Below are positions 36,614 to 36,766 of a stretch of 64,000 nucleotides of DNA, one piece after another. Source of the DNA: Sphingomonas brevis (GTDB lineage: Bacteria; Pseudomonadota; Alphaproteobacteria; Sphingomonadales; Sphingomonadaceae); the NCBI RefSeq assembly GCF_023516505.1, contig NZ_JAMGBB010000001.1, positions 868,001-932,000 of the forward strand. The letters run 5' to 3'. Below the pieces are notes generated by a model that was given only the letters and a program-made list of their open reading frames with translations, had not been told where the DNA came from and did not search any database. Made by a program: the position numbers and the translations under genes. Within the stretch, counting starts at the first letter, position 1. Each line of letters opens with the position of its first letter.

Positions 36614-36766
36614 GAGTCACACTGGATTCGCGGTCAAGATGGGCGTGGCGATAAGCCGCGGCTGCCGAATGAGAACAAAAGGAATCCGCTCAAGAGTCGA
36701 CCACAACATCTTGAGTCCCAATCGAATCATCGGACTCTATCCCTAGTGGTGTGACTCGAAAGACTC
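36614..36766 (-). promoter_or_regulatory. Cluster of nine GANTC methylation sites in the ccrM upstream region
   Basis: GANTC occurs at 36614, 36625, 36682, 36694, 36713, 36724, 36733, 36753 and 36762 in the 174-bp gap between rnhB and ccrM. From base composition I would expect about one or fewer. No TTAA-type CtrA half-site is present. Since ccrM product methylates these sites, they are likely to feed back on its own promoter; in Caulobacter a smaller number of sites lies in the ccrM leader. Confidence 0.75.

Follow-up and report, generated by a model that had tools for sequence, protein, structure and literature searches.

The gap between rnhB and ccrM in Sphingomonas brevis is, in our assessment, probably a composite ccrM promoter, combining (i) a GcrA-type core, (ii) an operator for NrdR, a repressor responsive to the level of DNA precursors, and (iii) GANTC sites fused to the inner half-sites of that operator. 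We describe this anatomy from sequence and conservation, and from it infer how binding of GcrA and NrdR, repression, its timing and the fusion might operate.

The window analysed is the whole stretch of 64,000 nucleotides, to whose numbering all coordinates refer; features of the gap and of the genes on either side are collected in Table 1. The ATG at 36580 is a likelier ccrM start than the longest-ORF start at 36604: it corresponds to the MN(M/L)I/V motif at the N-termini of relatives' CcrM proteins, and the sequence GGGGA occurs ahead of it within 36589-36597. Near neighbours of the window's ccrM, among named relatives, are those of Sphingomicrobium and Sphingomonas sediminicola. Beyond rnhB, positions 37466-37540 hold a REP-like palindromic intergenic repeat (GTCATTCCCACGAAAGCGGGAAC ... 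GGGTCCCCGCCTTCGCGGGGATGACG), and 37553-38722 a single ORF whose translation, the only basis for this assignment, suggests a fusion of a ThiD-type kinase with a C-terminal glyoxalase/VOC-like domain.

Table 1. Features of the rnhB-ccrM region (window coordinates; fractions refer to genomes of the genus)
Feature	Position	Strand	Remarks
rnhB-ccrM intergenic regulatory region	36605..36778 (174 bp)	- (read towards ccrM)	from ORFs and sequence
ccrM, longest ORF	35441..36604	-	GANTC DNA-methyltransferase gene
rnhB (ribonuclease HII)	36779..37399	-	co-oriented, upstream of ccrM
TTGACC, putative -35 of core ccrM promoter	36632..36637	-	conserved TTGAC then two GANTC, 31/34
NrdR box 1 (predicted), CCACTAGGGATAGAGT	36734..36749	-	matches consensus at 11/16; GANTC site 3 fused to inner half
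NrdR box 2 (predicted), ACTCAAGATGTTGTGG	36701..36716	-	matches consensus at 12/16; box starts 33 bp apart, spacer of 17 bp
GANTC site 1	36762..36766	.	GAGTC in ccrM sense; 34/34, N always G
GANTC site 2	36753..36757	.	18/34
GANTC site 3	36733..36737	.	overlaps inner half of predicted NrdR box 1; 31/34
GANTC site 4	36724..36728	.	in predicted operator spacer; 2/34, near-private to species
GANTC site 5	36713..36717	.	overlaps inner half of predicted NrdR box 2; 30/34
GANTC site 6	36694..36698	.	1/34, private to species
GANTC site 7	36682..36686	.	within conserved GGANTC-cTTTyGTTC element; 19/34; N varies
GANTC site 8	36625..36629	.	core promoter, 3 nt past TTGAC; 29/34; N varies
GANTC site 9	36614..36618	.	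core promoter, 11 bp past site 8; N varies

A first-pass annotation of this DNA had drawn attention to nine GANTC sites at 36614-36766, more than chance would predict. All nine are present, all lie inside the gap, and the excess holds by two separate measures: dinucleotide shuffles of the gap contained a mean of 1.65 and a maximum of 7 sites (2000 shuffles, never nine), and the genome rate of 1.90/kb, taken from a 400-kb sample, predicts 0.29 sites per 153 bp, giving a probability of about 3e-11 for at least nine. Equal density was not encountered elsewhere in the 2.59-Mb genome, where a whole-genome triplet census found the ccrM gap to be the only run of seven GANTC with gaps of at most 30 bp, the next longest runs having four; genome-wide statements here and below rest on pattern searches and the 400-kb sample. 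Over its full length the window has fewer GANTC than its shuffles (126 vs 322); another dense group in it comprises four sites in 77 bp (53963-54039).

The cluster is also shared by close relatives, in which arrays likewise precede ccrM; the median GANTC count of the densest 153 bp before the gene is 6 for the genus and 5 both for the family and for the order's other families. By this comparison the ccrM-promoter array is ancient, and the nine sites of the species appear to comprise about seven older ones plus two near-private additions (sites 4 and 6). Within the genus the middle base N is variable at sites 7, 8 and 9, which fits selection for methylation alone, and invariant at sites 1, 2, 3 and 5, so that some further constraint must act on those sites. 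The invariance of site 1 (GAGTC, region 36750-36766), N included, in 34/34 genomes is unaccounted for by the NrdR boxes described below. A further conserved element, GGANTC-cTTTyGTTC (here GGATTCCTTTTGTTC), lies at 36673-36686 on the minus strand, between the predicted NrdR operator and the core promoter, and is found family-wide.

At the putative core promoter, TTGAC followed by at least two GANTC within 22 nt occurs in 31/34 promoters of the genus and 44/63 of the family, as against 2 of the 643 TTGAC in the 400-kb sample; the two core sites are typically 10-12 bp apart, and the arrangement recurs in many Rhodobacterales and other alphaproteobacterial loci. Earlier work predicted ccrM to be a core GcrA target, lost by Caulobacterales (PMC7987155); Caulobacter promoters with GANTC between -35 and -10 have an activation time of their own (PMC4287350), and at ctrA P1 of that organism methylated GANTC around the -35 is bound by GcrA (PMC3667746). 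The genome contains gcrA (PF07750, 137.3 bits, over cut-off; the candidate is under the NCBIfam equivalog cut-off, 141.7 vs 280). The core sites, CGAATCC and TGACTCA in the ccrM sense, fit the extended GcrA motif YGAKTCK (PMC7987155) on neither strand. Because gcrA is present and two GANTC stand 11 bp apart after a conserved TTGAC, GANTC/GcrA-based feedback at ccrM, as the first-pass annotation proposed, is plausible. Its suggestion of a stronger feedback gained no support here, and the array is more than an enlarged version of the Caulobacter switch: two sites are near-private, two conserved ones are predicted NrdR half-sites, and variation at N is confined to the sites closer to the core promoter.

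Searches of the gap for other regulatory signals found no -10-like hexamer and no sigma70 or terminator consensus. The annotation was right that a CtrA-type TTAA is lacking from the gap of this species; TTAACC occurs upstream of ccrM in 16/34 promoters of the genus and 46/109 of the family, and GTTAACC-type CtrA half-sites, absent in the window species, stand upstream of ccrM in many family loci (L087-L154). Control by DnaA was rejected for the window, whose gap has no DnaA box; in the same set of loci, TGTGGATAA-type DnaA boxes lie just past the core promoter in 39/109 family promoters. An RNA structure or known RNA family was likewise rejected, nothing coming near a gathering score (best E 0.13, PAGEV).

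The consensus of the NrdR box, as reportedly given by Rodionov and Gelfand in 2005, is ACACWATATATWGTGT, and the centres of paired boxes are spaced by about an integral number of helix turns. Two inverted arms, CCACTAGGGATAGAGT and ACTCAAGATGTTGTGG, which end on their inner sides in GANTC sites 3 and 5, resemble this box, and we predict them to be such a pair. Established NrdR sites are pairs of 16-bp palindromes, with binding seen at spacers of 14-18 bp and in the presence of dATP plus ATP, not with ATP alone (PMC12051234). When promoters were scanned with the consensus for pairs 30-33 bp apart, scored out of 32, the pair of the window's own ccrM gap reached 23/32, a score equalled by none of 1860 genome segments and none of 500 shuffles. 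Pairs of at least 20/32 were found in 34/34 promoters of the genus, 48/63 of the family and 14/15 of the order (2/560 shuffles), with mean scores of 22.4, 20.3 and 21.1, respectively, against 15-16 in shuffles; over spacings of 20-60 bp the best was 33 bp in genus and family and 32 bp in the order's other families. The genome also encodes nrdR (TIGR00244, 165.9 bits; cut-off 124.65).

By these measures the rnhB-ccrM gap holds a conserved, apparent NrdR docking site. The case is weakened by box 1, a poor match (11/16), and the 17-bp spacer is marginal relative to the customary 15-16 bp; moreover, the idea came from the same sequences that were later scored, of which the consensus and the nrdA test described below are independent. 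The operator is absent at six Rhizobiales-type loci and one Oceanicaulis locus, and so is not universal. From the end of box 2 to the putative -35 is 63 bp; if the operator does not overlap the RNA polymerase site, repression from that distance would call for DNA looping or for a further promoter upstream.

The nrdA promoter of the same genome carries a box pair of 26/32 (13/16 for each box, 31 bp apart) that resembles the ccrM boxes. A position weight matrix derived from 63 pairs of ccrM arms, in which the letters of GANTC were masked, was run against a background of 464 kb of the same genome (2295 segments); it scored the genome's nrdA promoter at 27.0 and its ccrM promoter at 25.5, the background maximum being 17.2; nrdA promoters of relatives all fell within the top 0.4%. 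Searched without mismatch, ACTCAANNTNTTGTGG had exactly two matches in the genome, at ccrM and nrdA. The second ribonucleotide reductase gene (nrdJ-like) showed no box pair in the upstream stretches examined.

In other families of the order and in Rhodobacterales, matching boxes are located within the upstream gene. For seven such families of the order the best-scoring boxes, 32 bp apart, fall within the rnhB coding frame; synonymous codon choice there is frozen (GCA 14/14, GGA 15/15, TAT 15/15, GGT 13/15, CTA 15/15, CTT 12/12), while invariant amino acids alongside show mixed codon use. Rhodobacterales have a near-perfect box (ACACAATATCTTGTAT), itself without GANTC, over the last rnhB codons, which are frozen too (CAC 9/9, ATC 10/10, TTG 10/10, TAT 9/9, CAA 10/10), with a weaker partner 31-32 bp upstream. 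This freezing of the rnhB 3' end extends over loci L036-L050 and L271-L300, which represent the other families of the order and Rhodobacterales. The frozen codons are consistent with an operator inside the gene, and the finding of boxes in rnhB in some lineages and in the gap in others implies that the operator was kept, or regained, at differing positions upstream of ccrM.

These comparisons bear directly on the view of the first-pass annotation, here generalised, that the gap is a feedback switch built of GANTC only, its array sensing methylation via GcrA and the arms at sites 3 and 5 serving as extended GcrA contacts. A dense conserved array, the presence of gcrA together with the prediction of ccrM as a core GcrA target (PMC7987155), and the variable N of sites 7-9 would all accord with such a switch; we nevertheless judge it unlikely, as the arms persist where GANTC has been lost and match nrdA boxes that have none, sites 3 and 5 show no variation at N, which would be expected of half-sites for another protein, and the frozen Rhodobacterales box lacks GANTC. 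A smaller probability still attaches to the proposal that the paired boxes bind, in place of NrdR, some other regulator common to nrdA and ccrM, such as an unknown S-phase factor. Their departure from the NrdR consensus (11-12/16), most marked in box 1, could be so explained, but the palindrome, the pair spacing and the nrdA partner all fit NrdR, nrdR is present, and the ccrM boxes are similar to those of nrdA in the same genome (13/16 each, 31 bp apart).

On the favoured reading of an NrdR operator within a composite promoter, a further feature is the fusion of its half-sites with GANTC. Among 130 ccrM operators of Sphingomonadaceae, 124 have GANTC at one or both of their inner half-sites, 91 have it at both, and one has it at an outer half-site; none of 14 nrdA operators of the genus shows such a fusion. 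The fusion gains no advantage in the box-pair scan, which scores a T at box position 3 as mismatched, and the difference between 124/130 at ccrM and 0/14 at nrdA marks it as specific to ccrM. The fusion may mean that methylation changes the binding of NrdR, or that NrdR shields these sites in the manner of MucR (PMC5172544); methylation and NrdR may compete there. We offer tentatively, and with some doubt, a more specific scheme of a methylation-gated operator, in which CcrM would methylate the inner half-sites in its own promoter, such that dATP (via NrdR) and methylation (via fused GANTC) would be read at the same bases, a two-input switch tying synthesis of the methylase to replication and precursor supply.

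That shielding were itself the selected function, with NrdR or another protein occluding GANTC to maintain hypomethylation and not to repress, seems to us very improbable: MucR, and CtrA at a synthetic site, do block access of CcrM to GANTC in Caulobacter (PMC5172544), and the inner-half fusion is specific to ccrM, but unfused boxes are conserved in other families and in Rhodobacterales, so operator function needs no occlusion. Chance accumulation of functionless GANTC, conceivable for the two near-private sites of the nine, can practically be set aside for an array that is unique in its genome and whose other members are kept in 18 to 34 of 34 genomes, at fixed spacing within diverged intervening sequence (mean top-base frequency 0.61).

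The predicted operator shares with those of nrdAB, nrdHEF and nrdDG the paired 16-bp palindromic boxes, a spacer within 14-18 bp and sequence in common with the genome's own nrdA boxes. It differs from operators of ribonucleotide reductase genes in that its target is a DNA methyltransferase, it stands about 63 bp upstream of the -35, its inner half-sites are fused to GANTC, and the boxes of sister lineages lie in the upstream rnhB coding sequence. The CtrA-activated Caulobacter ccrM promoter (PMC10073500) likewise carries GANTC and presumed methylation feedback, but has two GANTC where this one has nine, no CtrA-type site and a predicted NrdR operator. GANTC beside the -35 or between -35 and -10 is familiar from the GcrA/CcrM promoters of ctrA P1 and mipZ (PMC3667746, PMC4287350); unlike those, the present core has two GANTC about one helical turn apart, more sites upstream and no YGAKTCK match. 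MucR-occluded hypomethylated promoters (PMC5172544) provide a parallel for GANTC overlapped by the site of a site-specific protein, whereas the protein that might occlude GANTC here is NrdR, and the gene concerned is that of the methylase itself.

A GcrA-type core promoter for ccrM is of a kind already predicted (PMC7987155); what appears new is the predicted NrdR operator. Deletion of nrdR in Caulobacter alters a cell-cycle-linked phenotype (PMC12186491) and deletion of ccrM lowers nrdA (PMC3973325), neither paper drawing a link between NrdR and ccrM, and the main text of a study of the proteobacterial NrdR regulon makes no mention of ccrM (PMC5343134). No such link was found in the literature searched, which did not extend to RegPrecise tables and subscription papers, so that an earlier prediction is possible.

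We propose that TTGACC and the two GANTC 11 bp apart would constitute a methylation-dependent GcrA/sigma70-type promoter. At high dATP, NrdR loaded with dATP and ATP would bind the box pair about 63 bp upstream of the -35 and repress ccrM together with nrdA, so that methylase and ribonucleotide reductase would be co-regulated; as replication drew dATP down, NrdR would release both genes, whereupon GcrA with sigma70 could drive the GANTC core promoter. In Sphingomonadaceae, where each box has GANTC fused to its inner half-site, methylation by CcrM and occupancy by NrdR could affect one another through shared bases. The GANTC-fused half-sites open this interplay of methylation and repressor to direct testing, and the frozen rnhB codons offer a clean natural sign of an operator hidden within a gene. 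The distribution of the boxes suggests that DNA methylation and the supply of DNA precursors may be controlled together in many alphaproteobacteria. If so, the cell-cycle methylase would join the ribonucleotide reductase regulon, and epigenetic control would take the level of dNTPs as one of its inputs in Sphingomonadales and Rhodobacterales, and probably in further orders.
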